Shown: one piece after another, positions 1 through 58,213 of the stretch | How positions within the stretch are numbered: the first letter of the stretch is position 1 | Layout of the letters: the number at the start of each line of letters is the position of its first letter | Assembly (NCBI GenBank): GCA_021018995.1 | Contig: CM037588.1 | Span: 86,643,765 to 86,707,764, forward strand | Source of the DNA: Chloranthus sessilifolius | Taxonomy: Eukaryota; Streptophyta; Magnoliopsida; Chloranthales; Chloranthaceae | Direction: 5' to 3' | Length of the DNA stretch: 64,000 nt | Notes under the pieces: generated by a model | The model's database searches: none | What the model was told of the DNA's origin: nothing | What the model saw: the letters and a program-made list of their open reading frames with translations, nothing else | Made by a program: the position numbers and the translations under genes

Positions 1-943
1 AATTTTTTTCAACCCTTTGGGAATAGGGGGGGCTCTCTATTTATAGAGAAGAGGTGGGTTAGAGGGTTACTTAAGAGTTAATTAGTTTAGTAATTAGGTA
101 ATCCTCCATCTAAGGTTTTCTAGGTTTTTAGGGTCCTAAGGGTTTGGGGAACTGATTTCAATGGCAGATGATGGGGTGAGACCATAGGTGACTTAAGGGT
201 TGCATATAAGCTCAAAGGGGGTGCAACCAACCTTAAGACACCCACCTCAACCAATGGGATGGTCAAAAGGTCAAACCTGATGAAGGGATTTTAAGCATCT
301 GATGACAGTTACTGTAGCTAAGCTGGGCGTATCTATTACATACGCCCAGTTTATGTACAGTGATTTCCATGAAAACTAGAGGAGACCTGAGAAGCTGGGT
401 GTCCGCGGTGGGCCCTACCTATGCTGGGCGTATGTATTATGTACGCCCGACCAATTTTGGCCCAAAAATACCAGGTGTAAATAATATATACGCCTGATCA
501 AAATGGGGCCAAATATGCTGGGTGTATCTAATACATACGCCTGAGCAAAAGTCATGATTTTATGTAAAATGTCAATCAGCCATAACTTTTAAACAGTAAC
601 TCCAAATTGATCTTTGGCTTGCTGGAAAGCTGGAGAAGTCCTCCTTCTAATGGTATGTGGCTCATCCTTGGCAGTGATTTGTTTAAAATTTTGTAGCTCT
701 CCTCCCATCAAATGCTTAGAAGGGTTTAAGTTGAGTATGGGAAGGGATCCTAGGGTTTAGAGGTGATCTCTAAGGGTTGGGGGAATTTTTCTAAAGGGTT
801 CATGGTGATTCCTAAAGGTTTGGATAGGTTCCTAAGGGTTCAGGGTGATTCCTAAGGGTTCAGGGGTGCCATCGGAAGCACAGGGGTACATCTCTCTCGG
901 AGTACAGACTAATCGGGCCTTGGGACAAATTTGGGTGTCTACA
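1..943 (-). repeat. 3' LTR of the Tat element (partial)
   Basis: Aligns with 21117-22064 almost base for base, including the TATA segment (38-45), the palindromic motifs and the end GTGTCTACA at 943, whose reverse complement TGTAGACAC is the LTR start. About 685 bp of R-U5 lie beyond the left edge of the window. Confidence 0.93.
320..545. repeat. 47-bp-period palindrome array, left LTR
   Basis: Four copies of an imperfect palindrome (GGCGTATA...TATACGCC) are centred a few bases after 327, 428, 475 and 522. The last three are exactly 47 bp apart and the first is 101 bp away. In element orientation the array lies in U3, about 280-500 bp upstream of the TATA box. Confidence 0.9.
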
Positions 944-956
944 GATGCCCCTCTTT
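944..956 (-). other. Polypurine tract of the Tat element
   Basis: Directly next to the 3' LTR end; on the minus strand it reads AAAGAGGGGCATC. It would prime plus-strand DNA synthesis. Confidence 0.88.
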
Positions 957-2999
957 AGTATTTGACCACTAATGATCGGATGCCAAAGATAAAAGACATC
1001 CGCAGAGGTCCAAGGCACGTTGGATGGGTCCACCTGGTTTAACTCGATTCTCAAACATTCATGGTGATGGTGAGTGTACGTAAGCCCTCTCATTTCGGGA
1101 TATCGTCCGTACCTCAATGCTAACAGTCCCCTGGCGCATTGCGACATTACTGGGCATAACTGCGATGATCATAAAAAGTGTAAGCCCGCTAGTGGGGATA
1201 TCGTCCACTTCCTGAGGGAAATTATAGATTTGTGATGTTGAGTATTAATTTGAACCAGACAGCTCCATGAAACGGGGTGATCGATCTATGCTTCGGAATC
1301 GACGCGAAGTACACAAGGCGAAGGCCTACAAATTGTGTCCAATCCTATGGGGTATCGACAGCTCCATTGGATTGGCCACGGGTGGCCTTACCTAGGTAAG
1401 ACTCGGAGTCCTTGGGCGAACCCATGAACCTCAAGGTTGCTTTAGCATGATTTACCCGTGTGGAGAAAATATTGATGTCGCAACACTTCTTGGGAATGCG
1501 TGCCCATTTTCAGAGTGAATTTTTGTGTGTTATTTTCAAATTTTATTTTATTTTGAGGCCTCTAAGCAAAGCTCAAGGACCTCTGGCAATTTTATTCTTG
1601 CACAACTCTTTAAGTGGATCAAATGCCAGTTGATACGCTTTAAGAGTGCGTGCGCTCTGTCGGGGATAGGTACACCTTGGGGATGTGCACGTTCTGGTGG
1701 TGAGGTGCTCCTGATTCACGCGAACTGGGGTGCCTTAACTCGAGAAAAAGCTGAAAAAGATCAGGCTAGGACCAAACATCCATCGAAAGAGATGGTCAAT
1801 TCTAGCCTCCATCCCTAATGAAATTATGTCTTACTAACTATGCACAGACAGACACCCATTAGGGGCGATAAGCAGCAAATAGGCGTGAATGGAAGCCTCA
1901 ACCCTAAGGTACAATTTACGAGGACAAACGACTATCCTGCGGATACCCAGATGCAAGTGTGTACATTCAATAGGGACACCATGCCTATACAGGTTTTAAG
2001 CCTGTGTAAAAGGAAGTAAAAGGGAATGAGCCCTTCGGTCTGTATGTTTGCACATAGTTTGGATGGTTGTAATTTTATTTTTGACGGGTCAGTTTCAACT
2101 GACAATAAACTTTTTGAATGGTCTGAAGTCAGGTGAACTCTTGGTCAACATAGATCCGAAGGTGGACGATCAGAGCCAAAGCTTGAAAGGTGGGGTCAAC
2201 CTACTCAGGATTTTAACTACATAACAAAAGGTTGTTATCCCGAACCTTCTCCTTCTCCCCCTTTTTTTTTTCTTCTTCCTTTTTTTTTTGCACATGTCAG
2301 TTTGAGACTTTGAGCATGCTCACACTATTTTTATTTTCGCATATATCCTTAGGCAGATCAACTTTCCATGTTGATACACCTCAAGGACGTGCGCATTCCG
2401 GTGATAGGTCCTTGGTTTGCTTGCCGGATCAGGTCTCACCTCCAGGGGATGCGTGGTCTTGGTCTTTAAACAAATTAAACCCAACTATCTTGTTTAGGAA
2501 AGTGGGTTCGGAAGCGGGTTCCTAATGACCAGGGGTAAACATGACTAGTATTTTGCCTGCCGGATCAGGCATGAGGTATCCCTGTGTAAAACAGGGTTTG
2601 AGAATTTTTGGGTGAACCCGGTCATTCTGAATTGATTTAACACGACTCTCGAAGTGGGGCAAACAAGCGTTGCAACGCTCTTTTGAGAACTAGTGTTGTG
2701 TTTCAGCATTTTTCCTTTTTCTCTCTTCTCTCTTTCTTTTTATGGTTGTTCTTTCATGTGAATCTCCCTCTTTTTTGTTTAGGTTTTATGCAAGATTTTT
2801 TATGATTTTATGATTTTATGGGAGCATTCAGCGGGCTCTTACAGATCTAGATCCATTATTATAGCACGGTCCCTTTGGGCCAATCGAAGGGAGCTCGAAG
2901 GGCCATTTGGGGATGCGTGCACGATCACCTGATGATATGGGGGCTTCTAAGAGGGGCCAGGCCTAGATCTGGGGCATACAAAGGGCCTGTAGGGTCATC
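957..2999. other. Non-coding 3' region of the Tat element
   Basis: No open frame with family resemblance was seen on either strand. It holds imperfect direct repeats: a segment with GGATATCGTCC near 1095 and again near 1195, and a segment with GGA(T/C)GTGC(A/G)C near 1678 and 2385. Pyrimidine runs occur near 2255-2290 and 2700-2740. Confidence 0.6.
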
Positions 3000-3011: not shown

Positions 3012-3092
3012 TGGCTAGGCGTATATAATATATACGCCTGGCAAATCTGCAACGAAAATGGCCAGGCGTATATATTATATACGCCTGACCAA
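3012..3092. repeat. 47-bp-period palindrome pair upstream of the PMD gene
   Basis: Two near-perfect copies (AGGCGTATA...TATACGCCTG) start their cores at 3019 and 3066, exactly 47 bp apart. They lie about 530 bp upstream of the plant mobile domain start codon and just upstream of a TATA-like sequence. Confidence 0.9.
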
Positions 3093-3622: not shown

Positions 3623-5984
3623 ATGTCTGGCGACGAAGGGCAAGATCAACAGGAGGGGCCAGAGATGGCCTATGGTCCTCATGGGGAGCAGTTTATCATT
3701 TCTTAGCGCTCTTCTCAACCCTGGTAGGAAATGCACGGTGAAGTCGCCCACATTGGCCTCCTCCATTATCAGCACACCCATATCTCCAACTTCGGGATTG
3801 CTGGCCAGGTAAACCGATGAGTCCTTTTCTTTTCCTTCGATGCTTTGCTATACCATTTCACTCCTGTTCGATAGATTCCTTTTGTTTGTAGCCTTTACCT
3901 CATATCATGTTTCAGGGTGGCTGGTTTGATCTCCAGTGCCTCGTGCTCTATCTTCCCCCAGTGGTGAAGGACCTGCTTGCTTAAGCCGGTTTTGGGGATT
4001 TTATTTCGTGCCCCGCTGTGAGGGTCGACACGGCTTATGTGAAGGCCCTAATAGAGCGCTTCCACCCTGAGACCATGACATTTCATATGGTCGTTGTTGA
4101 GATGACCCTTACACCCGTGGACTAGTCCATGATCACTGGGGTTCGCATTGGAGGGGTGTCAGTGACACCTACCCGCACTCCTGATAGGGAGGAGGTGACT
4201 CGGCTGATAGGGGCCTACCCAACCTCAGGGAATGTTCACGGTTCTGAAGTCAAGTTATCCTGGCTGGTTAGTCTATTTGAGCCTCATGAGTTAATGGATC
4301 TGGGCCAGCCCGATGTGGCCATTTATCCCAAGCCAGAGCGTGCACTAATGCTGGCCCGTATTTCTCTGTTGTTCCTTTTGGGTAAGACTCTTCTTTCAAA
4401 TACCAGCGGAAGGCGGGCCTCATTGTCCCTTCTCAGTCTTATGGTGAACTGGGACAACGTGCATCGGTTTGATTGGGGCGGTGCTAGCTATGCGGTGCTC
4501 ATGTTTAGTCTGGCGCGAGCTGTACTTGGGGAGTCCAGTTCCATTGTGGGCTTTTGGCCCGCACTTGAGGTATTTTATCCCCTGGTCTCAGTTTGTCCAA
4601 CTTTTCCCTTTTATGGAATATTTTTTTTATCTGCTTGCCTTCTCAGGTTTGGGGGTATCTGCATTTCCAACCTGGTCGCCCTTTGCTTCTATCCGAAGTT
4701 CCTACGTTCCCCCTCATGAGCAATTGGCACTCGAACCGCCGTCGGGACGTAGGCATGAAGCACCTGGAGTTAGGGCTGCGCTCCCAGTTTGATCTGTTGA
4801 TCCCTGAGTAGGTATAACAATTTCTCTCTTTACAAATGTGATAGTTCTTTCGTGTTGTGGGTTCAAATGTATATATATCCCTCCTCTCTTTTTTTTTTTT
4901 TGAGCAGGTCATCCTTGATCCCTACGTCGAATCTCCCTTCTGAAACCTGGCTGTAGTGGGTCCTTCTCGCTTTTTGTTAGACTGATGTATCATTTTCTTC
5001 TAGGGGTCCTGGACTAGGGCCTATTACCTAGGAGAGAGGGTGGTTCATCAGTACCGCCCTCTTTTCGCTGTGCCCCAAGCTCCCCCAGCTGATGTGTTGG
5101 CTCTTGAAGGTTCCACCGAAGTGCTTACCGCTCGCTTCCTCCATCATGGGGTCCCCATTGATGATCTTCTTTTTTCAGGGGGATATCAGATGTGGTATGA
5201 GTCTCTGCCCTATCATTCTCTGCTGCCCCGGTTCGTGCCCGGTGCCAACTTTTTGGCTTTTGGCGGTCCGCGGTCTCAGTTAATGTTCTTTCCTCTTTTT
5301 ATTTAGCAACCTTCCTGTGATTGCCTTGATTGCCCTGCTATTTGAATAAAAACCATTTCTCTCTACAGTTTGGGCAGGGTGGTGACTCAGATGAGGGGAT
5401 GAGGCAGCTGCTCCTGATGAGGCTACAGGTGCTGGACCTTCTGACCCTTTCGGTGCTAGTGCTTCTGGCAGTTCACCAGCCGAGATCCAGGGGACCTTTA
5501 AGCACTTGGATGATGCTTTCCTGTCGCGTATGTGTGCCGATGTGGCTGAGAAGGCACGCATATCCGCTGAAGCTATTTAGATCCCACCTCCTGAGTTGAT
5601 CCCCAGGGTAATTTCTCCCTTGTTGCCTTTCTCTCTTTTTTTCTTGAACTATGCGGATGACCTGTGTGACTGACACCTCTTTTTCTTACTGTGCAGAATT
5701 ATGAGTCGGCCGTGAACTAAGCTGAATATTACCGCAACATCATCTGGCTTAGAGAGGCTGAGGTGGTGAGTGAATACTGACCAAACCTGATCATTTTCTT
5801 AATTACCTTTTGCTTGTTTCCCTACTTGATGGCCTCTGGTGTGCTCCTGCAACGTGCTCGTGAAAAGGAGTCGCGCTCTCTGCTCGGCCACATCTCACAG
5901 GCGTGGACTTGGGTGGGAGAGACTCGTACTTTTCAAAGTGCGACCCGACGTCGGAAGAAGTCGAAGGGGGCTGCCCAAGACTAG
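3623..5984 (+). pseudogene. Plant mobile domain (PMD, aminotransferase-like) gene with introns, antisense inside the Tat element
   Basis: Reads as a multi-exon gene opposite in direction to gag-pol. Exon 1 is 3623-3808, ending CAG|GTAAAC; exon 2 is 3916-4569, exon 3 4647-4811 and exon 4 from 4908, each preceded by a pyrimidine tract and AG. Further exons start at 5004 and 5369; one ends at 5607 before GTAATT; a short one is 5698-5766; the last ends KKSKGAAQD-stop at 5984. Exons 1-3 keep one reading frame across the splices. Exon 2 carries the family pattern PAVRVDTAYVKALIERFHPE then MTFHM, and further on WDNVHRFDWGGASYA; exon 3 starts VWGYL. A Ser-rich then helical, basic tail follows. In-frame stops in exons 1-3 and later are mostly TAG or TAA in place of CAG/CAA. 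PMD proteins include Arabidopsis MAIN/MAIL1; their biochemical role is not settled. The domain is known in transposable elements. Confidence 0.82.
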
Positions 5985-6382: not shown

Positions 6383-6596
6383 GTGGGCGTATATATTATA
6401 TACGCCTGGCAAAATATTTAAAATTTTGCCTTGGCGTATATAATATATACGCCTGGCAAAATATTTAAAATTTTGCCTTGGCGTATATAATATATACACC
6501 TGGCAGAATATTTAAAATTTTGCCTTGGCATATATAATATATACGCTTGGCAAAATATGTACAATTTTGCCTTGGTGTATATAATATATACGCCAC
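6383..6596. repeat. 47-bp tandem repeat with palindromic core, five units
   Basis: Units begin at about 6384, 6431, 6478, 6525 and 6572, exactly 47 bp apart. Each is TTGGCGTATA...TATACGCC followed by TGGCAAAATATTTAAAATTT; later units carry scattered C/T changes. The array ends about 180 bp upstream of the DUF7745-like start codon and is the purest form of the motif found in the LTRs. Confidence 0.95.
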
Positions 6597-6778: not shown

Positions 6779-8270
6779 ATGGACCCGCTTCCTAAAAAAA
6801 ACCCAAATTCTCATACAAGGGTTGGGGCTAGTATACTTCCTTGTTTGGATCCGGGGTCCAGTTTTTTGCAAAAATGGTGCGATAGCTTGGCTGAGGGCGA
6901 GCTCGCTGTTCTGGATCGCCTCGGGTTATCCCGCCTTTCCTCTCTCCTTGCTATTCCTCTGTTGCCCAACCTCCTGCAGGTGGCTTTGGCGTCATGGGAC
7001 CATAGGGCCCATGTTTTCAGATTTGGGTCCAGGGAGCTCACCCCGACCTTGGAGGAGCTAGCCTCTATTACTATCTTGAGGATGCATCGGGGACTTGCCA
7101 AAGTTGTGCTCAAACCAGGGTATGCAAAGGCGGTCCATGCGGTTCTCGGTTTGAAAAAGGGTGGGTATGAGAAGGGCTTCGCCGGGGGGCCCACCAGGTG
7201 CTCGGTGAAATTCCTGAGAGAACTTTTCGGCGACTCGAGTTCCCAAAAGTTGCCTATATAAGATCCTTTCAATGTAAAGGCCTTTGGCCTTTATTTGCTG
7301 TCGAAAGTTCTCTTCTTTATTGGGGGCGAGACATTTTCCCTCGGGTTATGCGATGTCTTGACCGAATTGGAGGGAGGTCGTTCACTGGTACACCTGGTCT
7401 TGGACGAGATGTATCGGGGCCTGGATGCCTCGGCCTCGGGCCAGGTCGGGATTCTTAGCAGGAGTCCACTCCTTATTTAGATTTGGCTAGGAGAGCATTT
7501 GGCTATCATGGGGCCCGTGCCGAGATTTTGCTTGGTAAGAGGGGATGTGGCTCGGGGCTTTCTGACCTGGTGCTCGAGACTGCCCCATGGGAGCATCGAG
7601 GAACTGAGCCTATGGCTATCTGACGCGGAGTTGATCTGGCAACTTCCCTGAATGGATGACACCTTTCCGATTGTCCGTTCTCAGGATTGTGAGGGTATCA
7701 TGCTTTTAGGGTTGACTGGTAGTACCTACTATTTCCCATCTCAGGTGCTCCGTCAATTCGGATATACCCAACACGTGTCGTGCACTGTGAGGCTGCCCTT
7801 GTGCTCTTTGATATTCTCTTGGGGTTCTCTCAGTGACCTAGACCGCATAGCAGCCCTCTGAGAGATCCACCAATCGGCGCACATGTGCAGCTTAGTTCAG
7901 GGGGGCGTTCTCTCTTCTGATTACAAGGTTTGGCTGGCATCTGAGGGCTTACTTACCCCTAACCCGATTTCGGTAGATGTGATAGAGCTGTGACCCTAGC
8001 CATACAAGGGAATGATACTCCGGACTAGGATTGAGTCTCTTTCTGTAGAGAGGCTGGCTTTGACTGAGGCTTTGGAGAAGGAAAGGGCGGGAGATTACGA
8101 GAGAGTTGCTACGAGAGTGACGTTCTTGATTGGGGCTTTTGGTGAGTCTCAGATCTGACGCCTTGCATGGCGTCGAAGAGTCTTCATGGTAGGTGGTTGT
8201 CTGATCGAAATGCCCGTGAGGACTCTCTTCTTACAGAGATTAGTTCTTTGAAGCGTGGTCCCTGCCCCTG
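6779..8270 (+). pseudogene. DUF7745-like gene, antisense inside the Tat element
   Basis: From ATG at 6779 the frame runs to 7261, then continues in the same frame through stops at 7261, 7480, about 7651, 7861, 7993 and 8158, so the gene is broken. The N-terminal part has the pattern HRAHVFRFGSRELTPTLEEL, close to the conserved core of plant DUF7745 proteins. Next come VKAFGLYLLSKVLFF and VLDEMYRGLDA, then YFPSQVLRQFGY, in the expected order. A charged helical stretch (ERLALTEALEKERAGDYERV) follows, and a final piece in another frame ends KRGPCP-stop at 8270. DUF7745 is a plant domain of unknown function that is abundant near retrotransposons. A relationship to PMD proteins is possible, so the name is a family resemblance only. 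Confidence 0.72.
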
Positions 8271-9864
8271 ACCTATTCCTGTACATAGCATAGATCATAT
8301 ACACAGGGGGGGCTGATGCCCCTTAACAGAGATCTCTTTCCTTTTTGTTTGGGTTATTTCTTCTTTTTTGTTTGTGTTCTTTTTTTTTTTATACTTGTAA
8401 AGAAGGCAAAAAATAGAAAGTGTGTCATGTTGTTATCTTTTTGGGACGTGACACTTCACACGTAACGCTGTAAGAAAAGAAATGAAATCTATTATACATA
8501 TATTTTATTATTATATATATATATATATTTTTTGGTGTTCGAATTTTCTTCCATACGTCTCGCACCGTAACGTTTTTTATGGAAAAGGAAAATCTATTAT
8601 CTTTTTTGAAATTTTCTCCTACACAGCGTGGGGCTTTTTATAGAAAAGGAAAATCTATTATCTTTTTTAAAATTTTCTCCTACACAGTGTGAGGCTTTTT
8701 ATGGAAAAGGAAAATCTATTATCTTTTTTAAAAATTTCTCCTTTTCTCCTTCTCCTTTTTGTGATGTCGGTATTTACGAGGCCAACTTGTGGGTCCTTTT
8801 TTGAGCATGGTCAAACCCTGTTTATGAGGCTCCAATTTTTCTTTTTAAACATGGGTAGGTCAGCTTCCCCGAGATTGATTAGTCTTCTGCCTTTACCTTT
8901 GGTCATGTGTCAGACGACGCGGTAGAGACGACATACTTGATCGGGATCCGATCCAATTTTAACATGAGTGGCCCAGCAAAGGGGAGAAGAGGCTCAAGGG
9001 GTCTAGACTAAAATAGGCGGGCCGGAACAGATCCTCCCCTAATCTCTCTTTTCTTGACACTTTTGCTCACAGTGCTCCAGACGGGTTTTCGCTATGCCTG
9101 TCATCCCCGTTTTTACCCGTAGCGCCCTTTCTGGTTTTCACTACATCCATGGGTTTGCTCTCTTACCCTGTGTGCCTTTCGAGTTTTCACACCGTCCGCG
9201 TGAGTTGGCTGTTTTTTAATTCATGTCCATCTTGCTTTGAACTCAAATTAATTTTTTCCTCTTTTTTTTTTTTCAAGAACCAGAAAGCCATGACATGGAC
9301 ATTGATTCCATCATAGATGGTTGGATGGGGTTCTGGTGTCGTCTCACGACTCAGCTCATGTTGACTTAACAGATATTATGACTGCTTTCGAACCTACAAA
9401 GAGGGCTTCCTTCAGGGTGTAGCTTGGCCATGGGTTAGGTTAGGATTTGATGGTATGCTGGGCTAAAAGGGTTTCCTTGATACGACTTCAATTTTCACAA
9501 CATACTTTCCTCCTTGGGGGTTTTTCTATACATATTTTTTTTGTTATTCTTTTTCCTCCATTTCAGGCAATCTCTTTTTGAGTTTTGCTTTTTCGATTTT
9601 TTTAGATTTGATAGTAACTTTATAAGCATGCATCTTTTCTCTCTCTCTCTCTCTCTTTTTTTTTTTTGGTACATGTACACGTATATTTTTTTTTTGGGGG
9701 AGTGGGTTTATTGAAAGAAATGTCCAGGCTCAAATGGGGTAGCAAAGGATATCATTATTTTTAGGGATGTTTTTGGGCTACTGTGCTTGAAATGATGGCC
9801 TCTTTTGGGTGGTTCTTAAGCAGTCACGTATTTATTTGATCAATACTTACCTTATCGCGATAGA
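8271..9864. other. AT-rich non-coding region between the DUF7745-like gene and integrase
   Basis: Contains a 61-bp tandem repeat (listed separately), a TA run near 8512-8528, a CT run near 9640-9668 and long T runs. No coding or RNA gene was recognised. Confidence 0.6.
8571..8745. repeat. 61-bp tandem repeat, about 2.7 units
   Basis: AAAATCTATTATCTTTTTT recurs at about 8589, 8650 and 8711, 61 bp apart, with the flanking CTCCTACACAG(C/T)GTG(G/A)GGC also repeated. Confidence 0.85.
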
Positions 9865-19021: not shown

Positions 19022-19424
19022 ACCAAAAGTATATTTTTGTTTTGGGTTTTTGATTTTTCTTTATATATATTTTTTTAGATTTTTCAAATGAAAATTAACT
19101 CCCCTACTTAAATGAATGATGATCTGGTGCCTTAGGAAAATTTCCGTCTCGGGTGATATATGCACCTTTAGTAGGTCCCACGGCAGGATCCTACATACTT
19201 CGAAAGAAGTGAAAGGGAACCCTTTCGTTCTATTGAAGGTGAGGGAATCCATGCAAACGACCTGATCTCTCCAAGCAAATCAATGAGAAGTCGCCTTCTT
19301 TTGACTGGGCGGGGGCATATTGGGTGTTATAGAATGCGGGAGGCTATTGCGGGCACTAATACCGCAAATCGGGGAACTTGGGTGGTGGATTGGGCCTCAG
19401 ATCGGGCTGCTTGAACCCAGTTTA

Positions 19425-19600
19425 TATTGGGCGTATGTATTATATACGCCTAACCAAAACTAAGCAGATTGGGCTGGGCATATATATCATATACGCCTGG
19501 CTTAAATATGGGGATTTTGGTTGCGCGTATATATTATATACACCTGAGTATCTCTGAGGATTTGTTGCTAGGCGTATTTAATATATACGCTTGGCAAAAA
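19425..19600. repeat. 47-bp-period palindrome array in the 5' leader
   Basis: Four copies with core G at 19431, 19478, 19525 and 19572, each 47 bp apart. Spacers between palindromes differ from those of the 6.4 kb array, so the period is kept although the sequence between has changed. It lies about 400 bp upstream of the first ORF of the element. Confidence 0.92.
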
Positions 19601-21437: not shown

Positions 21438-21662
21438 AGCTGGGCGTATATATTACATACGCCCAGTTTATGTACAATGATTTCCATGAAAACCAGAGGA
21501 GACCTGAGAAGGTGGATGTCCGCGGTGGGCCCTACCTATGCTAGGCGTATGTATTATGTACGCCCGACCAATTTTGGCCCAAAAATGTCAGGCGTATATA
21601 ATATATACGCTTGACCAAAATGAGACCAAATTTGCTGGGCGTATCTAATACATACGCCTGAG
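21438..21662. repeat. 47-bp-period palindrome array, right LTR
   Basis: Core positions 21444, 21545, 21592 and 21639 repeat the 101-47-47 spacing of the left LTR. Lies about 280-500 bp upstream of the TATA box in element direction. Confidence 0.9.
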
Positions 21663-22108: not shown

Positions 22109-22743
22109 TCACCCTTCCATTTTATGTTTTAAGGGGTAAAAATTACACTGAATTATTGAATCGAGCATCCAAAGCTCGCACGATAAGTTGACACGTTTAA
22201 TCAAGCGGCCCGAACCCATTCGACCATGGGCCATCTCAGCCGCAACGTGTTTATAATCTAGCGTGGCCGTGAAAGGGTCAGCAAGGGCAATATCCTCGTG
22301 GTTATAAGTGTGGAAACACTCCAAGGCATCGGCCACATCATCGAAAGTGAACGTATAAGGCTGATTATCAATTTTGGTCCTGAGAATGGTCGGGTCCTTG
22401 ATCAGTTCCATGTTCTGATAGAATAGTCTGACTATCCTAGGGTAATAACTGTCCTTGCATGGGCGAGGGATTCCGGTCAAACTCGCGGTGGAAATATAGT
22501 CGAAAGCCCACTTTGTCTCATCGCACTTGGCGAAAGTTGTAGGATCAATAATTCGGGTTCAAAGTCTTTGTCAAACCACCATTCATTTGGTCGTTCACGT
22601 GATAGTGGTGGAGGTGGTGCTTGTGTAGGTGGTGCAGATGAAGAATCCGTAGGTGGTTTCTTCGGTGGCTATTGCGAAGAGGAACCCGAAGTGGGTTTCT
22701 TTGGTGCAGCACTCGCCGTGGCTTGGCTAGTCTGGGGTGGCAT
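22109..22743 (-). pseudogene. Env-like 'putative plant transposon protein' fragment of an Athila element
   Basis: Starts MPPQTSQATASAAPKKPTSG at 22743 with a Pro/Ser-rich N-terminus. One stop and one frameshift (near 22558) occur; then residues resembling the plant transposon protein domain follow: YYPRIVRLFYQNM, IDNQPYTFTFDDVADALECF, and CELWMLDSIIQCNFYPLKHK. This domain is common in the third ORF of Athila-type elements. It stops after KMEG at 22109, earlier than relatives, close to the Tat insertion point, so it is probably truncated. Its role is unknown. Confidence 0.68.
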
Positions 22744-23035: not shown

Positions 23036-23400
23036 AATCGATTGAACGATTTACCAATTTGTTCGATCGGTTTTCAGACATTAATGTTAGCCCCCAAATT
23101 CATTCGAACGGATGTTAATTTTGATTGAACGAATTGCATTAGTTAAAGTGGTCCCAAAATTTTTGTTCGATCGAAATTAGAAATCGATCGAACGATTTTC
23201 TGAAGTTGATTTTGATGCTACTTTTCACTCCACTAGCCCAAGCATTTCGTTCGAATGATTTAGAAAATCGATCGAACGATTTTTGGCAACAGCTGGAGCT
23301 GTCACAGGTCTTTGCATTTCATTCAAACAATTTGAAAATCGTTCGAACAGTTTCCTAACAACACATAAGGCTTTTGCCTACAAAATTTTGATCGAACAAA
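23036..23400. repeat. Cluster of CGATCGAACGATTT-type motifs
   Basis: At least nine copies of TCGAT(C/T)GAACGA-like or GTTCGAACG-like sequence on both strands in 365 bp. Several are near-palindromic, and some show TG or CA in place of CG, as after deamination. Confidence 0.8.
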
Positions 23401-24855: not shown

Positions 24856-25128
24856 TGTTAAGTAGTGAAAAATGCCAGTTTTCACCCCTTAACCTGACCT
24901 TTGATGGACCTGTGAGCACACTAAAAAACACCTGTTGAGTCTATTTTGTAGATAGCAATAAAAGACAGGAATAGTGGAGAAAACCACTCAAAAATGCTGC
25001 ATAAAGAAGTCCATCTCTCAGCATAATGCAGACCTAGCAATGGCATATAAGAGGGCTGCACACCATTGGCCACTTGGGGTGTGTGGCAACAGCAGGGCAG
25101 AGTTAAGGAAGTGAAAGCAGGTAGAAAA

Positions 25129-25570
25129 CATCCTATCGAGAGGTTATCTAAAGGTTTCGATAGGATCTGAAGACAGAGAAAGAAAGAATTTGTGAGGATT
25201 GAGAAGTTCGATAGGATCCAAGAACCTATCGAGTAGCTGAAAGAAAGGAAGAAATCATCCTATTGAAAGCCTGCCTGAGGTGTAAAGGGAACCTATCGGA
25301 TGGTTGCCTGAACCTATCGAGATGGAGAAGCTGGAGCTCAGACTTATTGGAAGGCACTTGAACATTTCGACAGGAGTGAGAGCAATCCTATCGAAATGCT
25401 GGCATGCAGAGCTGAACCTATTGAAAAGCTTTCCCAACCTGTCGAATGCTCCAGACAAAGGGGCAGAGAACGCTGAAGCTTCAAGAGGAGGCTCATCCTA
25501 TCGAAACCTATCGAAGAGATCTGAGAACCTAGCGAAAGGACCAAAAAGCTCAATTTGAACATGTCGAAAG
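25129..25570. repeat. Cluster of CCTATCGA motifs in the P LTR
   Basis: About 15 copies of CCTATCGA(A/G) or its reverse complement in 440 bp, for example near 25129, 25228, 25313, 25388, 25496 and 25505. Several are decayed to CCTATTGA or CCTGTCGA. With the solo LTR removed, the cluster lies about 230-670 bp upstream of the candidate TATA box. Confidence 0.85.
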
Positions 25571-25714
25571 CTTCCTCAACTTGTCTAAATCATGTGAAGA
25601 ACTTCTCAGAAAATAGGCTGTTCACACGCTGCAACTTGGTGACCTGCTACACGCAACCCAAGGCATTTTGGTGACCGGCACGACGATCCTGAATATGCCC
25701 TAGGAAACTCTAAC

Positions 25715-28317
25715 TGTGACAGCCCGAATTTCGGCACCCCGAAACCCGTGCCATCAGCACGATCATCTTGACCGTGCCCTTTAGCTAAGCACGAAACACT
25801 GGTATATCAAGCATAGAAAAGTATAATAAACGAGTTTGCAGAATTTAAATCTATATTAATTAACTTCCCAAAAGACAGTTCTACCCTCATGCCTCTGCAT
25901 GAATGGAGAACCGATCCGAACCATCGATGATAGAAATCATCACGGATGGTTCGTCCCAAAAGAATAATCCCAACTCCTTATGTACATGGTTTTAAACAAC
26001 AATCAAGGCTTGACATACCAAGCCGTACAAAACCTCTCCAAAAATCCCTCAAAGTGGCACAACAGAGTCCTCTAGAAGAAGTCCTCTGGAGGTGGCTCCA
26101 ACTCACACCGCCGCAGGTCCCATCACGGGATCGGCCTCTCAAGCCTCGGCAAGAATCGCTAATAGTGGACTGACGATAGTCTATAGGGTGAGCTACATCC
26201 TAGCTCAATAGGGAACGAACACAGTTGAACATATAAATTATGACTCACATATATTCCATGATATGCTATGCATGATGTGTCTATGCAGTTGTTAATGAAC
26301 AGTTAAAAAGCATTTCGTTTTACTGTTGATTTCTTATATTTTCATTTACTCGTGAATGATGCTGAGAAGGCCTAAAGCAAAACTTAAACTTTCAACTTAA
26401 GTAATCCCCGAGCAATATAGCATCGAGCCCCGATGAGATACCCATCATCGTCATCTATATAGACAGTTTTAACCGTATTCCCTGGGAATACCAATAGTAT
26501 CCAAGCCCCTTTCCCCTGGGGATTGGTGGCGGGGTTTCACTTGTCTCAATCAACACCCCTGGGGTGTGCTTACTATGTACGGATAAGCCTCCGCACTGGC
26601 CTACGGTTTTGCCGCCGTATCGGTCACGGATATCCTGCCGTGTCAGTCGTGGATATCCCGCCACGTCGGTGGGGTACCCTATCAAACCTCAAATAACAAA
26701 AATATCGGTGCCTTACATATAGTTATTCACCGTGTAAATGTGCTATCTTATATCAGTTAGGCCCTATCAAACATTATTCAATCCTTGGATACATCCCTGG
26801 GATGTATCCATTTACTTGCATCACACCTGATGCTCTTATCTCTTTACTTCTTCATCCCCTGGGGATGGCTCATTATGATTACTCTTATGGGTGTCACACA
26901 CACACACTTTTCACAAACTCTTAAGAAATAGGCATTTGAATTGAGTTCTATATCACTACATACATGCTCTTGTAAAATAAAGTACATGTTCAAGGTGTTC
27001 TCTACCTCAAGTCTTCGTTTGATCAATGCATCAAGGTCCCACGTGGCTCCTTGTGCATTAGTCCACACGTACCACCTATGGTACCATATAACAGGTAAAA
27101 CACATCACAAAGGATGCAATAAAGAAGGTATAAGATCCTCCAAAAATCTTAAAGTCAACCCAAAAGTTAACATAATTTATGTCAGTCGATTAATCAAACT
27201 CCAAAATCGATTAATCGAAGGTCAATATCGATTAATCGAAACAATTTCGATTAATCGAAATTCTCCTTTTCGCAAAGTCCATTCTCAGTTCGAACAGTCG
27301 AGTTTTCATTCGATTAATCGAATCCAATTTCGATTAATCGAAATTCTTCTTTTCGTAAAGTAATTTCACTGTTCGAACAGTCGAGTTTTCATTCGATTAA
27401 TCGAATCCAATTTCGATTAATCGAAATTCTTCTTTTCGCAAAGTAAACTCGATCACGATGAAGTTTCACAAGTTGATTAATCGATTCCAAATCGATTAAT
27501 CGAAAACTAAAATCGATTAATCGAAATCCCATTTCGATTAGTCGATTTTTCCTTAAGTCATTTCCTCCAACCCCTGGGGTCCACTGGAGGTTCTCAGTCG
27601 ATTGATCGATCCCCAAATCGATTAATCGAAATCCAAAGTCGATTAATCAAAATCAAATTTGATTAATCGAAATCGGGGTCCTCTGACTTTTCAACTTCCT
27701 GGCCAATTTTGATTAATCGAAACCTAATTTCGATTAATCGAAATTATCGGTCCATACTTCTCTTTTCCATACTTTTTCCTCTATTTTTCTAAGCCATTAT
27801 CCTAGGATTTTAACCCACATTTAACCACAACTTAACCCCTATAATCTATGCATCTTATTTACAAAAAATTTTTACCTTGGATAGATCTCAAGTTGATTTC
27901 TATCAAACAGTTGGAAGGCTAGGGTTTCCAGCTTTTGTTCTAACGGATCCCTTGCGTTGAATCGGCCTCTTTAATACTTGGATCCTTCCTTCCTCAACTA
28001 GCCTTTACTCCTTGCATTAATCACTCTTTTTACTCTCTCTCTCTCTTCTTTACTCTCCTTCAACAACCCAAAATGCCTATCTAGGGTTATTAAACCCTTT
28101 TATCCTATTCTTCACTTGTGAGTTGAGCACATACACCGCGGTAGGTGTATGCGACTTCCTATTTACAACACACACCACATCGACATTAAGTTTATCACAT
28201 CTCATCCGTTCATCACACCTCATGCTAACTATTGGACTTCCGTTTGGTCAAACCTATGACCGATCGGGCACGGATCCCGAGGTCATAGTTTTTAGCGTGA
28301 TTTTTCGGGCTATTACA
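25715..28317. mobile_element. Solo LTR, probably of a Del/Tekay chromovirus
   Basis: 2603 bp starting TGTGACAGCCCGAATTTCGG and ending GGGCTATTACA, flanked by a perfect 5-bp duplication CTAAC (25710-25714 and 28318-28322). No ORF with homology was seen inside. The size, TG...CA ends and 5-bp duplication fit an LTR left by recombination between the two LTRs of an element. The family is inferred from the style of the ends and the size only. The two ends are also imperfect inverted repeats of about 14 bp. Confidence 0.8.
27180..27740. repeat. TCGATTAATCGA cluster with an 83-bp tandem repeat
   Basis: More than a dozen copies of the perfect palindrome TCGATTAATCGA in the solo LTR. Within it a unit starting GAAATTCT(C/T)CTTTTCG repeats at 27257, 27340 and 27423, exactly 83 bp apart, and contains TTCGAACAGTCGAG. 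Confidence 0.92.
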
Positions 28318-31387: not shown

Positions 31388-31906
31388 TGTTAGAAAAATA
31401 GGTTCGGGTTGCAAAAGAAGATAAAGATCGGAATTAAAATATACGCTAATCCGGTTCGAGGCACGTTAAATATCGTTGTCTTTAAACCGAGATTTGCCCC
31501 TACCACTATGATCTAGTGGTCACCAAAAGGTTACCGGCAAATCGGTTCCAGAATACAACGAACCGGCAGCGTATCCGTGTGATCAGATTTGGTGAATCTG
31601 ATCACGCAACCAGAACACCAAAAAACTAAAGCGGAACTCTGAGAAGGAGAAAGCTTAAAGAAATTTGCGAAAATGCAGTGTTTGAAATGAGGGGTCTTGG
31701 GGCCCTTTTATAGATAAAATAGGTGTAACTGAACGGACATATCCGTAAAACAAGTGTAACCGAACGGACATATCCGTAGCATATAACTGAACGGTCGGAT
31801 AAGACATATCCGTTTAAAATTCAAATGGGCGGTTAGACACTTATTCAAAAGTTTAATTAAATTACCGTATCGCCACGCCACGCCACGCCACGTACACGTA
31901 CACGTA

Positions 31907-31943
<37 letters not shown>

Positions 31944-32195
31944 CCGTGCCCGTGCCCGTCCCGTCCCGTCCCGACCCGACCCGACTCGGCTCGGCTCGGC
32001 TCGGCGCGCGCGCGTGTGTGTGACTGATGGGTTGCATGGCGGTGGAAGCTACAAAATTCGGTGCCCCCTGGGTGAAGGCTACAAGCCTTGAGCCAAGACA
32101 AAGATATATAAGCCAAACCCAAAAAAGAGTTTACACGATGTGGGACAAATCCCAATTTCAAGAGCTTATTTTTAAAACCTTTAAAATATCCAACA
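31388..32195 (-). repeat. 3' LTR of the copia element
   Basis: Starts TGTTAGAAAAATAGG and ends ATATCCAACA. It contains the graded microsatellite (31871-32023). Confidence 0.93.
31871..32023. repeat. Graded microsatellite chain in the copia LTR
   Basis: Runs stepwise through CACGC, CGTACA, CGTGCT, CGTGCC, CGTCC, CGACC, CGGCT, CG and TG units with no gap. The other LTR has the same order with fewer copies (37276-37407). Confidence 0.95.
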
Positions 32196-36914: not shown

Positions 36915-37578
36915 GCCCTACCACTATGATCTAGTGGTCACCAAAGGTTCCAAATCGGTTCTAGGATACAACGAACCGGCGTATCCGATGTGATCGATTT
37001 GGTGAATCGATCACGCAACTAATACCAAAAACTAAAGCGAAACTCGAGAAGGAGAAAGCTTAAGAAATTTCTTAATGCAACGGTGTTTCAAATGAGGGTC
37101 TTGGGGCCCTTTATATAGATAAAATAAATTAGGCGAGCGGACATATCCGTAAAACAAGTGTAACCGAACGGACATATTCGTAGCATATAACTGAACGGTC
37201 GGATAAGACATATCCGTTTAAAATTCAAATGGGCGGTTAGACACTTATTCAAAAGTTTAATTAAATTACCGTATCGCCACACCACGCCACGCCACGTACA
37301 CGTACACATACACGTACTCGTGCTCGTGCTCGTGCTCGTGCCCGTGCCCGTCCCGACCCGACCCGACTCGGCTCGGCTCGGCTCGGCGCGCGCGCGTGTG
37401 TGTGACTGATGGGTTGCATGGCGGTGGAAGCTACAAAATTCGGTGCCCCCTGGGTGAAGGCTACAAGCCTTGAGCCAAGACAAAGATATATAAGCCAAAC
37501 CCAAAAAAGAGTTTACACGATGTGGGACAAATCCCAATTTCAAGAGCTTATTTTTTAAAACCTTTAAAATATCCAACA
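36807..37578 (-). repeat. 5' LTR of the copia element
   Basis: 772 bp, same ends as the other LTR. A TATA box (minus strand TATATAAA) is at 37110-37117. Carries a shorter graded microsatellite (37276-37407). Confidence 0.92.
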
Positions 37579-43357: not shown

Positions 43358-46300
43358 TCCACAACCATATACACTTTGTAAAATAACTGTTTTGTGTGTG
43401 TTAAAATTCTATCATTTGCTATTTTTAATTTGTTCTTGTATGTTGTAATGTGTTGTGTTAATGCTTAAGAGTTTAGATTACCTGGATCTGAATTTATGAG
43501 TCTTCATCTACCATGAATTGGGCCATCTGCCTGTGTGATTTGAATGTGTAGAGTAGACTGTGCAACCAGGGGTTTAAATTGATTGACTGCTATGATCTTT
43601 GTTGTGAACATATGTGTGCATGAATTATGCAATGGGCAAGAGTCTCACAACTGTGAAATAGTTGAAATGTGACAGAAATATGGGGCTGGTGCACCATGGC
43701 CGGGTGCATGACAGTTTAAATACACATGCCAATGGGCTGGCATTGAGAAGCAGTGGATTTGGCCCTGTTGCGAAGCTCATTTTCAACTGTGCGAGTAGTG
43801 AATTCCATACTTATTCTAGCTCGCGAGGCTCCTTCTGAACTGTGTGAGCTGTGATTTATCCCGCACAGAACTGTGCGACAGTGCATCCGATGCTTATTCC
43901 AGCTCGCGAGGCTCATTTCTTCTAATCTCATCCTCGCGATAACATGCCGAGAGCCTCGCGAAGCACGGGTTATGTTGATTTAAATCCTGCGATTGCTTCT
44001 TCTTCATTTTATCTCTCTGCCCTAGCTTCCAGCGCACACCACAGAGCTGTCATTTCCATTCTTTCACCTTCACTACCCATTTTGCCCCTACTCATACACC
44101 CTACCCCTATCACTTTGCTCCACGTCAGCTCCCAAGTATTTTACACCTGACAGAGAGCAGATTGGTTCACTATGCAAGTTCTAAGCTAAAACCCTAGCTT
44201 TTAGAGGGTAAATGCTATGTTTTCTCAGCTATGAGTTTAATTTGTATTTCCTCTGGTCTGCTATTTGATTTTGGGGAGGAATTTGTGTGGTGAAATCTCA
44301 GTGGAGCTGTAGCTACCTAGGGTTTGTGTTTTCAGACCTAGAATAGGGCAGCACCAAGCCCTAAAACAAAATCAAAGAGCCTTCTCAACAACAGGGCCGC
44401 ACCAAGCCCAAGAAGCCAGCTACCAAAAGAACCTAAGGTTTGTGCTGCCAGTGCTGACACTGTGAAGAAAGAGAAGAACAAGTATTTTGAAAAATAAAAC
44501 TCGCAACCTAATTTTGTTTTGAGTTCAGATTCAAATTTAGAATAGCTCTATGATGTAGTTTAGTCAGTTTGTAATATAATGTCTAATTTCAGTCTTTTGC
44601 ATGTATGGTGTCCTGTACATTTTTCTAGTTAATAAAATTATCTATTTGTGTGCCTCTATACATTGTCTTTATTTCTTCCATTTTTAGTTGTTAGTGGCAT
44701 TATTTCTCTGTTTTACTACCCTACTGCCCCTCCACATGTATCTTTTGAAATAGTGAGGACACTATTCCTCATAGGTTTGAGGGTATGGCATGGTAAGCCA
44801 ATGGGATAGTTAACCTAAGTGCAGCAGCCTTAATTAAGTCTGTAATAAATGTAGTAAAGTCCACCCTTAAATTTGAAAATGAGAAAATTTTAAAAAAATA
44901 AAACTGATGCAACCTTGTTAACACTAAAATCATTTAAAAATTCAATACTGCCATGAGGTGAACATCAAGAATTATTTTTTTCAGTACTTAGTGAACCAGT
45001 GAGGAGAGAAAAAGGTGAGGATGTGCCCAAGAATTCAATTGAAGACTATACCTAGTGAGATTTGGGCCTACAAAATTGTTTTCTTCTTAAAGAGTATATA
45101 TGGCAAGTCTTTTCTGCTTTAAGGACCGGTTGATTCAACCCCTTTTCACTAGAAGTTAGGCACCTCCAAGTTGAAACTTTTGGCAACATGCATAACACTA
45201 AGGAGATGATCAAGGCCTTCATTTGGACAGTTCGAGCCTAAAAGTACTAACCCATTGAAACTGCCCTTTTGCATACACTTTTTAAGCCTTCAAATCAATT
45301 TTTCTTCAAGATACACCAGAGTACTTGTACCTAAACCTGTAGACCTAATTAACCTTTCCCACACTCTAAGAATTCAGAAGGTAAAGGAGAAGGAGATGAA
45401 GGTAGATAAGCTAGGTTCAACATTTGGTGAATGAAGGAGAAAAGCAACATGTGGACAGCAGTGTATTTGTGGGATAGTGTGGCATTTCATAAAAATAAAA
45501 ATAAAAAAATAAAAGGGAAAAAGAGAAGTCAAGAGGATAACTTCATCTAAAAATTGAAAGGAAGAAGAGAGGCTGGCTACTTTGAATCTAAAAAATGTCA
45601 ATGAAGATGAAGTATGTTGAATTCAAGAAGGTGAAGTCATGAATCACCTCCTTTCCTTGCTGATTTTTCAGTTGTGAATCCCCTTTATCCCTTCCATTCT
45701 TTTCAAACCTCACCCTTAAGCCACATTATAACCCTTATAAAAGATATTGTTGATCCTAAGTGAAATGAACTGTCATGTGGAGAAAAGGGAATGCCTGATC
45801 TATGGTGAGAAGTGTTTAATGATGTCAGAAATTAGATGCAACTGCCGATGCTCATGCTTGCACACCCATTTGGGGTATGTAAATGCTCTTGAGCTTGTGT
45901 GAACTGAAACACCCTTTAAATTCATTTGTGAGAGGAAGCCCTAGTAAGCGTTGGGTCTGAGATTGAGCTTATTGGGCATTGTTTAAACCTAATTTTTGAA
46001 TCATTGGTAAGCTTAGTACTAGTTTGGACACTGTGTTTCTTGTTGTCAGCTGATTGGTTTGATAAGTATACATGCATGATTTAGGTGTTAACTGTTGGCA
46101 TTCAATGTCTTGAAACTCCTCAAATTTGAAAGATCAAAAGTAGACTGATACTCTATTTGTTGAAAACTGATTTTAGCATGCTTGCACTTGTGTTAACTAT
46201 TTTATTGAGAAGTTTGTAGGTATCTTCATTGGAAACCCTTAGGAGACTTCACTCCTCCACTAAGGATCACTTAGTGGTTTAAAAGGCTTGATGCATAAGC

Positions 46301-50356: not shown

Positions 50357-50590
50357 CATTCAGAACCCGAGCCACGAGAGGATGGGCTTTAGAAAGAACA
50401 GCTCCAGAGGATCTTGAGCAGAAGGCATTGCTCTCATGAGCCTATCGAGGCTAGGTATAGCCTCAGAACAACTGTCCCGAGAGGATGATTTGAAGCGCTT
50501 GATCCTCTTGAGGGACAGCTAGTTCACTTACAAAATGGTCTCGAGAGGATGCCTGAAGGTTTCTGATCCTCTCTAGAATGTAAAAATGGC
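50357..50590. repeat. CGAGAGGAT motif cluster, M spacer
   Basis: CGAGAGGAT occurs near 50391, 50480 and 50552, with related CCAGAGGATCTTGAG, CTTGATCCTCTTGAG and TGATCCTCTCTAG copies on both strands, plus a CTATCGAGGC near 50443. Confidence 0.8.
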
Positions 50591-55554: not shown

Positions 55555-56020
55555 TATTCTTGAATTGCCCTTGTTAAAGCTGCGAATCTCCAGAATACCT
55601 TTTCGCAGAGTTCAGGGGCCTTTTCGCAAAGTTCAATGACTTCTGAAGCTCTGTTCGCAAAGTTCAATCTTCTTTTCGAGGAGTGTTTTCTTCTTTTCGC
55701 AAAGTTCAAGGTTCTTTGCGAGGAGTTCAGATGCTCTTCGAAAGCTATACCTGGAGTTTTAGTCCTTTTCGCAGAGTTTAATGACTTCTGAAGCTCTGTT
55801 CGCAAAGTTCAATCTTCTCTTCGAATTGTGTTTTCTTCTTTTCGCAAAGTTCAAGGTTCTTTTCGAGGAGTGTTTTCTTCTTTTCGCAAAGTTCAAGGTT
55901 CTTTGCGAATATTAGAAGTTCTTTGCGAATAGTAGAAGTTCTTTGCGAATTGAACTCTAGGCTCCCATTCTTCTTTGCGAATTGACTTTTAACTTGATTT
56001 TTTCTTTGCGAATGGCTCTC
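55555..56020. repeat. TTCGCAAAGTTC motif cluster in the N LTR
   Basis: More than 15 copies of (T/C)TTCGCAAAGTTCAA or TTTGCGA(A/G) in 465 bp, about 290-760 bp upstream of the TATA box. It includes a segmental duplication of about 145 bp (ATGACTTCTGAAGCTCTGTT at 55636 and 55781), which is also in the other LTR. Confidence 0.92.
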
Positions 56021-56251
56021 TCTCTTGCTTTAGGTCTTTGTCTGCTCTTTTAGACCCTCTTTAGCCATTCTTTGAAATTTCTTCACTCCTTCTTTAAACT
56101 TGACATGAGTCTTTTGATCTTTTGGGATGCTTTTCGATTTGGACCTTCGATTGGTTAGTCAGAAATGCACACTAAAGCACTTATTTAGTCTTCTCAAGGG
56201 TCTTTCAAGGCTCATGTTTAGGGGTGAAAATGGTATTTTCACTACTTAACA

Positions 56252-58213
56252 CACCCCAAACCTAAGCTTTGCTAGTCCCCTGAGCAAAGAAGCGTAAAAG
56301 CAAAATAAAGAGCCACTTTTGTAGGAAGCACAGTGCATTTAGCATATGCAACAAGCCTTTTAAACCCCTAGGTGATCCCTAGAGGAGTGAAGTCTCCCGA
56401 GGTTTTCAAAGAAGGTACCCACAAACTTCTCCATGGGACAGTTGGCATTAGTGCACCGTCATCCCATGAGCAATCAAAGATCAAAATTAGTTACTCTTGG
56501 ATCAATGTTTAAACAGAAATTTAGGTTTATTGTTTGCAAGGATTTCAACATTTATAAACCTTATGAATGTTTCACTCTTTCCAATCTGTGAGCAGCCATA
56601 GAAATCATGCAAATGTGTCAGAGTTCATCATTTGAATAAAATTAGGTTATAAGTCATACTTAATGTGCTCAAGTTCCAACCCAAACACTTACGGTGTACT
56701 CTCATCAAGATTTTTGTCGAAGGGTCCATTTCCACTCAAGCTCAAGAGCAATTACATCTCCCAAATGGATTTGTAAGCATGAGCATAGGCATGATTCTCA
56801 GGTGCTGGCATCCTTGACATCTTCTCACCATAGATTGGGAAACTGCTTATCTCCACATGACAGTTCACTCAACTTTGGATCACAAGGACTTTTATTTGGG
56901 TTTGTTGTATGGCTCATGGAGTGAGGTTTTGAGGATAGGAAGGTTGAACAGTGTTTGGATTTTTGAGAAGTCAGAATTGAAGGAGGTGGTTCATGACTCC
57001 ACCTTCTTGAGTTTAGCTTCTTTTGAGATTCTCGTGTTCAAAGTACTCGTTCTTCTTCCTTTGATCTTGAATTTTCAACATAAAGTTCCCTTTTGCCTTT
57101 TTTTTTTTTTTTTTTTCACATTGTTTTTCTTTTACTTTCTTGGCCACCATCGCCCATTTTGAGGTATTTCTTCTTCATTTATTTTGATATTTGCCCGAAA
57201 TGTTCCATCTTTACTTCTTTCTCCTTTAACTCCCAATTCTCAAGGTGAGGGAAGGCTGAATTAGTTCCATTGGTTAAGAAAATGGGTGTTTTGATGAAGC
57301 ATTGTAGGATTTATAGCTCAATTGGGGTACAAACAAGGCGATCTTTCTTGGTTGGTTCTGTTAGCTCAAGTCAGCCAAAGAAGGCCTTGATCTTTCCTCG
57401 ATTTCATGAATCTTGTTGCTTGTTTTGATTTGGAGTTTCCTAATTTCTAGTGGATCTAATGCCTCAACCATCCTTTGAATCGTAAAAGGGTTGCCTCAGT
57501 CACTCTTCAACGAGATTTAAAACATATAGGCTCAATTCTCACGGTTATGGTTTTTCCTTGAACTTTTAAGTATATCTTTACCTTTTCTCTTCCTCGTAGA
57601 CTTGCTATGTGCTAATACAAGTGTATTTTCCGGTGTTAACATCATGGAAATGTGGAATATTGTAGGGTTTAGAATGTCTAAATTCTTGCAAAGAAAATTT
57701 TAAAATTTCCACATTGTCATGATTCTTAAGTAAATTGATTCATTTCCTGATTACTTTGGTGATTGTGATGCCCTTATGCTAATTATCCCATGGGCAGGAC
57801 CTGTTTGCCATACCCCCAAACCTATGGGGAACAGTGTCCTCACTGGTTCAAAGGTGGCATGGTCACATTATACCGGAAAAATTGAAACAAGGCAGCAAAA
57901 TCGAGAAAGTGTAGTTCATAAGAACTGAGCTTGATGTCTATTAAAATGGATTTGGCTCCGTAAAGATCGCAAAGGACTTCTCCCATTTTCTATTCGAAAA
58001 GGAAATTTTAACTATTCAGCAGAACATGGTTCTTTTCGAGTAGTTCATTACTGACTCGAGAATCGATTGAATAGAACTTTGAACTTTTGAGCAAGTACTT
58101 TTTACTTTGCGATTTGAACTTTGAAGTGTATTTACACTATGCGTACAAGAAAAATAGAGCGAAGCAAAGAAAAATCGGAAAAACAATGTTGTACAAACAT
58201 ATTATACACTTTT
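56252..58213 (-). other. 3' non-coding region of N
   Basis: Begins (left) with the PPT (minus strand AGGTTTGGGGTG) and the Athila signature TTTGCTCAGGGGACTAGCAA. Contains a block conserved with Q near 56730-56790 and 57790-57850, a T19 run near 57101, and a motif cluster near 57990-58130. Env-like coding was not recognised; plus-strand open frames here look random. Confidence 0.65.
57990..58130. repeat. TTCGA/TTTGCGA motif cluster, N spacer
   Basis: TATTCGAAAAGG, CTTTTCGAGTAGTTC, CTCGAGAATCGATTG and CTTTGCGATTTGAACTTTG lie just after the integrase end in element direction. They are the same motif class as in the N LTR. Confidence 0.6.

Follow-up and report, generated by a model that had tools for sequence, protein, structure and literature searches.

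We analyzed a 64,000-bp stretch of the Chloranthus sessilifolius genome (contig CM037588.1; hereafter the window, whose coordinates are used below unless another copy is named) that holds several retrotransposons with long terminal repeats (LTRs), designated Tat, C, S, P, M, Q and N. Ty3/gypsy-type marks among them are SH3_Tf2-1 in the C element, a Tat RVT_1 open reading frame (ORF) that lies upstream of the rve ORF, and a third ORF of Transposase_32 type; the finer labels Tat, Athila-type (M, Q and N) and chromovirus-like (C and S) are ones that we assume, following the original prediction for this DNA. That prediction held that arrays of short CG-bearing motifs, different in each element, lie upstream of the LTR TATA boxes and again ahead of an extra ORF, where they might form an LTR-like internal promoter. 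All of the arrays that it named are present in the window, and the 200-760 bp that it gave from array to LTR TATA box is about right; two further arrays, in Tat (19430-19591) and in a solo LTR of S (27182-27743), were absent from its list. The features are as follows, with TATA boxes sought as TATA[AT]A on the coding strand of each array-bearing region and with arrays between pol and the extra ORF called spacer arrays.

318..545, Tat 3' LTR array: four GGCGTATATAATATATACGCC-type copies with 2-3 mismatches, three of them at 47-bp steps; LTR TATA at 45 (minus strand)
3018..3085, Tat array ahead of the antisense PMD gene: two copies
4126..4716, plus strand, antisense PMD gene fragment (PF10536, E 9.2e-08; DUF1985, E 0.0046, weak; both under the curated cut-off)
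6386..6594, Tat array ahead of the antisense DUF7745-like gene: five copies, 47-bp period
6803..7858, plus strand, antisense DUF7745-like gene, broken (DUF7745, E 0.092, 6803-7258; PMD, E 1.4e-04, 7652-7858; searched piecewise, both matches below curated cut-offs)
19430..19591, Tat array between the 5' LTR and gag: four copies, 47-bp period
21443..21658, Tat 5' LTR array: four copies of the same palindrome; LTR TATA at 21162 (minus strand)
22112..22743, minus strand, C third ORF, truncated by the Tat insertion (Transposase_32, E 0.029, weak)
23036..23400, minus strand, C third-ORF array, ATCGTTCGATCGAT-type; TATATA at 23027 (minus strand)
25100..25620, plus strand, P LTR array, CCTATCGA; TATA at 28409 (plus strand), beyond the nested solo LTR
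25718..28317, minus strand, solo LTR of S, nested in the P LTR, with a TTTCGATTAATCGAAA array at 27182-27743
43745..43985, plus strand, Q spacer array, CTCGCGAG core, followed by TTTAAA
46770..47080, plus strand, Q LTR array, CTCGCG core; TATA at 47294 (plus strand)
near 50155, minus strand, M splice donor GGGTAAGT
50357..50590, minus strand, M spacer array, TCCTCTCGAGAGGAT-type, decayed; TATAAA at 50356 (minus strand)
55580..56015, minus strand, N LTR array, TTCGCAAAGTTC, 21/42-bp period; TATA at 55265 (minus strand)
57960..58130, minus strand, N spacer array carrying the N LTR motif (second genomic copy, L039/L040)

The Tat unit, described before as a 47-bp palindrome, is a 21-bp palindrome of the GGCGTATATAATATATACGCC type, and 47 bp is for the most part its repeat step. 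Since the Tat element lies on the minus strand of the window, its PMD and DUF7745-like genes are antisense. Motif cores vary across families (GGCGTATA..TATACGCC, TTTCG..CGAAA, CTCGAG, CTCGCG and TTCGCAAAG), and the CG-rich character held for 11 of the 13 window arrays, with CpG observed/expected ratios of 0.70-2.53, compared to 0.45 in the remaining window. A motif spacing of ~21 bp was enriched 2.0-4.0-fold (fold values that carry no significance figure) in the arrays of S, N, Q and C and in the LTR array of one C-like genomic copy (L036), while other periods at times scored higher in the same analysis; the spacing was weaker or mixed in the arrays of a second C-like copy (L035) and in several M-class LTRs, and M itself gave too few pairs. 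A step of two helical turns would be favorable to factors that bind cooperatively along the same face of the DNA.

We scored the 5- to 8-mers of each LTR array against 234-301 non-overlapping 200-bp windows of the stretch. With Tat LTR words, ranks 1-3 at every k were its three other arrays (ahead of gag, ~19401-19600; ahead of DUF7745; ahead of PMD). The Q words placed the Q spacer at rank 1 for k=5-7 and at rank 2 for k=8. The N spacer was at rank 2 for k=5-8, behind the S LTR, because an 18-base word occurs in identical form in both S and N. At another setting (6-mers, 160-bp windows), the N spacer was at rank 1 and the Q spacer at rank 2, behind a low-complexity CT run. P, whose LTR words also select the M spacer at k=7-8, was left out of LTR/spacer comparison since the window holds no P spacer.

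Of the C type the window contains a spacer array but no LTR, and of the S type an LTR but no interior. The assembly that holds the window (2.17 Gb, 32 contigs) served as the search space for further copies. We compared six families (Tat, Q, N, C-like, S and the M class), each through a single representative, in fixed windows of 0.9-1.3 kb, and found that each LTR ranked its own spacer first (6/6 at k=5, 6, 7 and 8; exact permutation 1/720). Control comparisons did not behave in this way (k=6, k=6 with CG words only, and k=7, respectively): U3 versus coding gave 231, 372 and 261 of 720; late LTR versus spacer, 51, 607 and 146 of 720; and spacer versus coding, 47, 417 and 76 of 720, where "coding" for the C-like and S copies is the third-ORF region. 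Thus, the co-variation of LTR and spacer motifs that had been set as a check was found between families, and the spacing of motif sites in the genome, given below, fits the positions of LTR and spacer among the sites listed.

In the chromovirus-like families, two C-like copies (L035 and L036), chosen from 150 matches, have third-ORF regions 74-76% identical to that of the window C element and are therefore relatives of it rather than members of the same subfamily; their palindrome is TTTCGTTCGAACGAAA, compared to ATCGTTCGATCGAT in the window. Matches to TTTCGTTCGAACGAAA (at most 3 mismatches) were confined to the spacer and LTR (13/13 in L035; 11/11 in L036). For S, a spacer array was forecast from the window solo LTR and then found in two genomic copies, L038 and L037. 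L038 has the order pol end, array, third ORF, LTR start, second array; in L037 the LTR, the ORF and both arrays lie on the opposite strand. Matches to TTTCGATTAATCGAAA (at most 3 mismatches) were again confined to the LTR and spacer arrays (31/31 in L038; 24/24 in L037). Cross-matches with the motif of the other family numbered 3, 1, 1 and 0 (L035, L036, L038 and L037), every one at 3 mismatches, and S and C align only in short blocks outside the arrays. Thus, the related families S and C-like differ in motif at the LTR and at the spacer alike.

L037 and L038 were not random choices, having been picked for two site clusters ~3 kb apart, and the spacing of sites is the wider test. Exact sites in the genome numbered 187 for TTTCGTTCGAACGAAA and 23,671 for TTTCGATTAATCGAAA, with 0 and 0 for reversed-pattern controls. 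Among 50 S sites listed, all on one contig (C1), 52/52 distances of 0.7-15 kb fell within 2.7-3.4, 6.7-7.5 and 9.4-10.6 kb (15, 20 and 17 distances), the bands that one would expect from steps between a spacer and the 3' LTR, between the 5' LTR and a spacer, and between two LTRs, respectively. Among 50 of the 187 C sites listed, 30/37 distances of 0.3-15 kb fell within 2.3-2.8, 6.9-7.3 and 9.6-10.2 kb, and the remaining 7 were at 4.6-4.7 and 11.6-12.2 kb.

In Tat, we sampled six loci picked across 150 PMD matches, which with the window make seven. The palindrome (at most 4 mismatches) was present ahead of PMD in 7/7 loci, ahead of DUF7745 in 6/6 loci covered (the L030 stretch stops too early) and in the LTR in 5/5 covered (L029 and L031 lack that LTR part), and no match was found outside these sites in those copy stretches. 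Downstream of the window DUF7745-like gene there is also a 61-bp tandem repeat (2.8 copies, 8574-8742).

The Athila-type elements were sampled as the best 20 of 146 RNase H matches, excluding those of the window. In most of these loci CpG formed one cluster ~200-600 bp past pol and another inside the LTR, 300-1200 bp from its start, and was sparse between the two. The LTR start could be placed in 10 of the 20, which with Q and N gave 12 elements; the majority fall into a single class whose core is CTCGAG, and the motif is therefore private to the class, not to the element. In an alignment of 14 M-type members (13 loci and the window M), the spacer array was followed by TATAA in 12/14 (+356 to +492 from the pol end; misses, L025 and L028), and a GTAAGT donor followed ~200-230 bp past TATAA, ahead of the third ORF, in 11/13 covered copies (misses, L017 and L025; the L016 stretch ends too early to cover it). 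Since the donor is downstream of the TATA box, a separate transcription unit would fit better than splicing from the 5' LTR. N gave 49 matches, 40 of which include the LTR start, and we examined one LTR with its upstream interior. This second copy has five sites (at most 2 mismatches to TTCGCAAAGTTC) in a 4.6-kb interior, 4/5 of them in the spacer, within ~310 bp after pol, and two of these four are 21 bp apart.

Some observations stand beside these. On contig C29, between 106835 and 167070, N-type LTR matches occur at ~10-kb steps (106835/116875 and 156827/166653), as in tandem elements that share LTRs. A block around the word TGTGACCATT (28898, 29008, 38134, 38652, 47742 and 48247, plus strand; 62979, minus strand) recurs in the LTR/leader regions of P, Q and N, with the surrounding similarity judged by eye. 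The gag region of P includes a further LTR-like pair of direct repeats (31731-32186 and 37135-37568) with CGTGCT/CCCGT simple repeats.

We consider it probable (about 0.75) that each family uses one promoter module twice, at the LTR and at the extra gene. The module would be the family's own short dyad or near-dyad motif, placed ahead of both the core promoter in the LTR and the promoter that would drive the extra gene; in Tat it would serve at four places (LTR, leader, PMD and DUF7745). The extra gene would then be a transcription unit of its own. It would comprise the array, a TATA box in those elements that have one and, for the M-type Athila elements, a first exon that ends in a splice donor, all within the stretch from pol to the extra ORF; the orientation is sense in Athila and chromovirus-like elements and antisense in Tat. 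A single sequence-specific factor acting at both promoters could couple transcription of the genome with that of the accessory gene. Promoter activity of the arrays, and the binding of protein to them, are what we infer here from sequence. The proposed internal promoter finds good support in the M-type Athila elements (array, conserved TATA and donor) and in the chromovirus-like elements, where a TATA box lies downstream of the spacer array in the window C element and in L038; the TATA boxes predicted straight after the arrays near 23021 and 50350 are those at 23027 and 50356. As for the fast turnover of motifs that had been suggested, comparison between families supports it. Inside the M class, however, the motif belongs to the class as a whole, and within a family we saw one changed copy, L030 of Tat, which differs before PMD while its LTR is unchanged.

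A number of results weigh against this reading. There is no TATA[AT]A near 3126, where a TATA-type start had been expected ahead of PMD (the sequence there is TACAAAAG), none close behind the DUF7745 array (the nearest is at 6755), and the Q spacer has TTTAAA instead of a TATA box. The M and P arrays are weak, with CpG observed/expected ratios of 0.45 and 0.58, respectively; the spacer of L018 is nearly CpG-free, and some further Athila loci also deviate from the CpG pattern. The 21-bp spacing is not seen in P or L024, and it is weak in both L018 and the spacer of L035. Among the 12 Athila elements, similarity to the own spacer was top in only 3 (mean 0.063 versus 0.042; permutation P = 0.015), a result that does not support motif specificity for single elements inside the M class. 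In two of these elements, L009 and L024, the LTR is probably foreign, as judged from LTR starts that differ from the class; both were kept within the 12-element counts. In the Tat copy L030, the palindrome ahead of PMD is altered (TCAGCGATATAATATATCGCTGA, oriented 2807-2829) while the LTR retains the usual one, possibly a motif switch in progress or a decayed copy. The exact 18-mer TTCTTCTTTTCGCAAAGT is common to the LTR arrays of S, which is chromovirus-like, and N, which is Athila-like (27427, 55688, 55833 and 55875, plus strand), and may reflect either a factor used by both or a motif passed between elements that are not related. Finally, the 1/720 of the cross-family test is not blind, because families, windows and representatives were chosen once the arrays were known.

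The arrays might be sites for host transcription factors, a different one or the same one in each family, with the extra protein uninvolved in binding, and we hold this possible at somewhat less than even odds. It would account for the 18-base word in both S and N; among 300 pairs of 400-bp segments drawn at random from the window, one had a shared word of at least 18 bases. Variation from family to family is a feature of LTR enhancers of the Tnt1 type. However, the motifs of the related S and C-like families differ within one host, at both places together, which is less expected with a stable host reader. Since related families in the same host differ in this way, a factor carried along by the element itself is an appealing reading, and the accessory protein is the natural candidate. 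We hold it possible, at similar odds to the host reading, that the element's own extra protein binds the array in a VANC-like feedback or anti-silencing loop; the S/N word, the class-wide M motif and the L030 mismatch count against a binder encoded by the element.

That the arrays serve the host, whose silencing pathways recognize CpG-dense tracts, seems unlikely to us: array ratios reach 2.53 compared to 0.45 elsewhere, and LTR CpG islands have been viewed as silencing-linked (PMC4029996, in the part available), but selection on the element should purge such tracts, and yet the dyads appear to be kept at both promoters. A neutral origin, in which slippage and copying between LTR and interior make the arrays and the extra ORF is spliced from the 5' LTR transcript, would agree with the tandem arrays that lie after pol in roughly half of the Retand clusters of recent activity (PMC11963269) and with the splicing reported for the env-like ORF of Bagy2 (PMC7264820), as far as the available text of these papers goes. 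We think it quite improbable given that array positions are fixed in six families, that M-type copies show a TATA box and a donor, not an acceptor, after the array, and that the extra ORFs of Tat are antisense, so that splicing from the genomic transcript cannot yield them. Least probable, in our judgment, is that the palindromes act in RNA, through hairpins, dimerization or packaging; the perfect or near-perfect dyads of Tat, C-like and S and the Tat array in the leader ahead of gag would suit such a role, but TTCGCAAAGTTC, the motif of N, lacks dyad symmetry and the arrays lie upstream of TATA boxes.

The extra proteins were examined on their own account. The ratio of nonsynonymous to synonymous substitution rates (dN/dS) was 0.15-0.47 in 21 PMD pairs and, for Athila ORF3, 0.09-0.24 in 12 of 14 usable pairs and 0.55 and 0.83 in the two closest (7/21 pairs were saturated). 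Both of these extra proteins are thus under purifying selection. The N-terminal part of Athila ORF3 has strongly basic stretches, and a nuclear signal has been predicted for an Athila ORF, while for a Tekay 5' ORF a different reading, with a double-stranded-RNA-binding-like fold and a role in RNA silencing, has been proposed (PMC11728184, from the portion available). The PMD fragment, which represents one exon fragment, scored 32.1 bits against Pfam PMD (curated cut-off, 34.9) and 17.4 bits against DUF1985 (cut-off, 35.1); ORF3 of L023 matched Transposase_32 (E 1.9e-07) at 31.6 bits (cut-off, 45), and no match to DUF287, a VANC-type domain, was listed in the profile search of the extra proteins. 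We rejected for now a single superfamily of PMD and Athila ORF3 (hhalign probability 0.2%, E 0.26, from shallow alignments with effective sequence numbers [Neff] of 1.3 and 1.5). Predicted structures were unusable, with mean predicted local distance difference test (pLDDT) values of 46 for the PMD fragment (single sequence) and 35 for ORF3 (8 sequences). Searches of protein databases gave no relatives at E<=0.001, either for PMD (353 candidates) or for ORF3 (7,993 scored), and viral contigs gave no match for the M pol piece.

The design of one module at two promoters has a precedent, and the comparisons that follow draw on the parts of the cited papers available to us. Sireviruses, which are Ty1/copia elements, have element-specific palindromes that form CpG islands ahead of the TATA box in the LTR and, in greater number of copies, on the 5' side of the env-like gene; the authors who described them see support for an internal promoter (PMC2829016; Bousios et al. 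2010). As in Sireviruses, a motif array lies upstream of the LTR TATA box and the same motif lies ahead of the extra, env-like gene; since the design is published for them, the present case is a variant of it. Sirevirus motifs have a CGG-CCG core in all but Tnd-1, and the extra ORF is sense, whereas here three Ty3/gypsy-type lineages have other cores, Tat has antisense genes, and related families differ at both places. A literature search of partial coverage, made at the level of titles and the starts of abstracts, found no report of the same design in Ty3/gypsy elements.

Other systems resemble parts of it. VANDAL elements with their VANC proteins (PMC5735166) have element-specific tandem short motifs in non-coding DNA that differ between related families, with an accessory protein adjoining, and VANC has DUF1985, to which the Tat PMD fragment is a weak match; VANDALs, however, are DNA transposons, and binding and loss of methylation have been demonstrated for them. 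Maize Grande likewise has an antisense gene, gene23, between pol and the 3' LTR, with its promoter upstream of the gene (PMC7264820), and Retand has predicted DNA-binding proteins and family-specific tandem repeats (PMC11963269); in contrast to the arrays here, the available text of these papers describes no link of the Grande and Retand repeats to an LTR motif. The CpG islands of Del/Tekay are likewise described for LTRs, with no matching array ahead of an extra ORF in the part of the source available (PMC4029996).

The function and expression of plant env-like and antisense extra ORFs have been described as unresolved (PMC7264820; PMC2829016, in the sections available). Our reading of one module at two promoters predicts a binding site defined to the base for at least two many-copy families, which would give a direct handle on the role of the extra gene; if the extra protein does bind the motif, a function would follow for a whole class of retrotransposon genes. 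With some doubt, we suggest that PMD/DUF7745, the Transposase_32-type ORF3 and the chromovirus-like ORF3 might be activators or anti-silencing factors that read a family-private motif in their own LTR and promoter. If so, a VANC-like private code would have arisen in several retrotransposon lineages, with the cis motif and the trans protein changing together. Host PMD proteins MAIN and MAIL1 are described as derived from transposable elements, and a "DOWN" promoter motif is found in 25 of 26 genes commonly dependent on them (PMC7156037; PMC9899485, in the portions available); if the private-code reading is true, MAIN and MAIL1 would be domesticated versions of such factors. Such a code would also explain how an element could wake itself while its neighbors are left silent.

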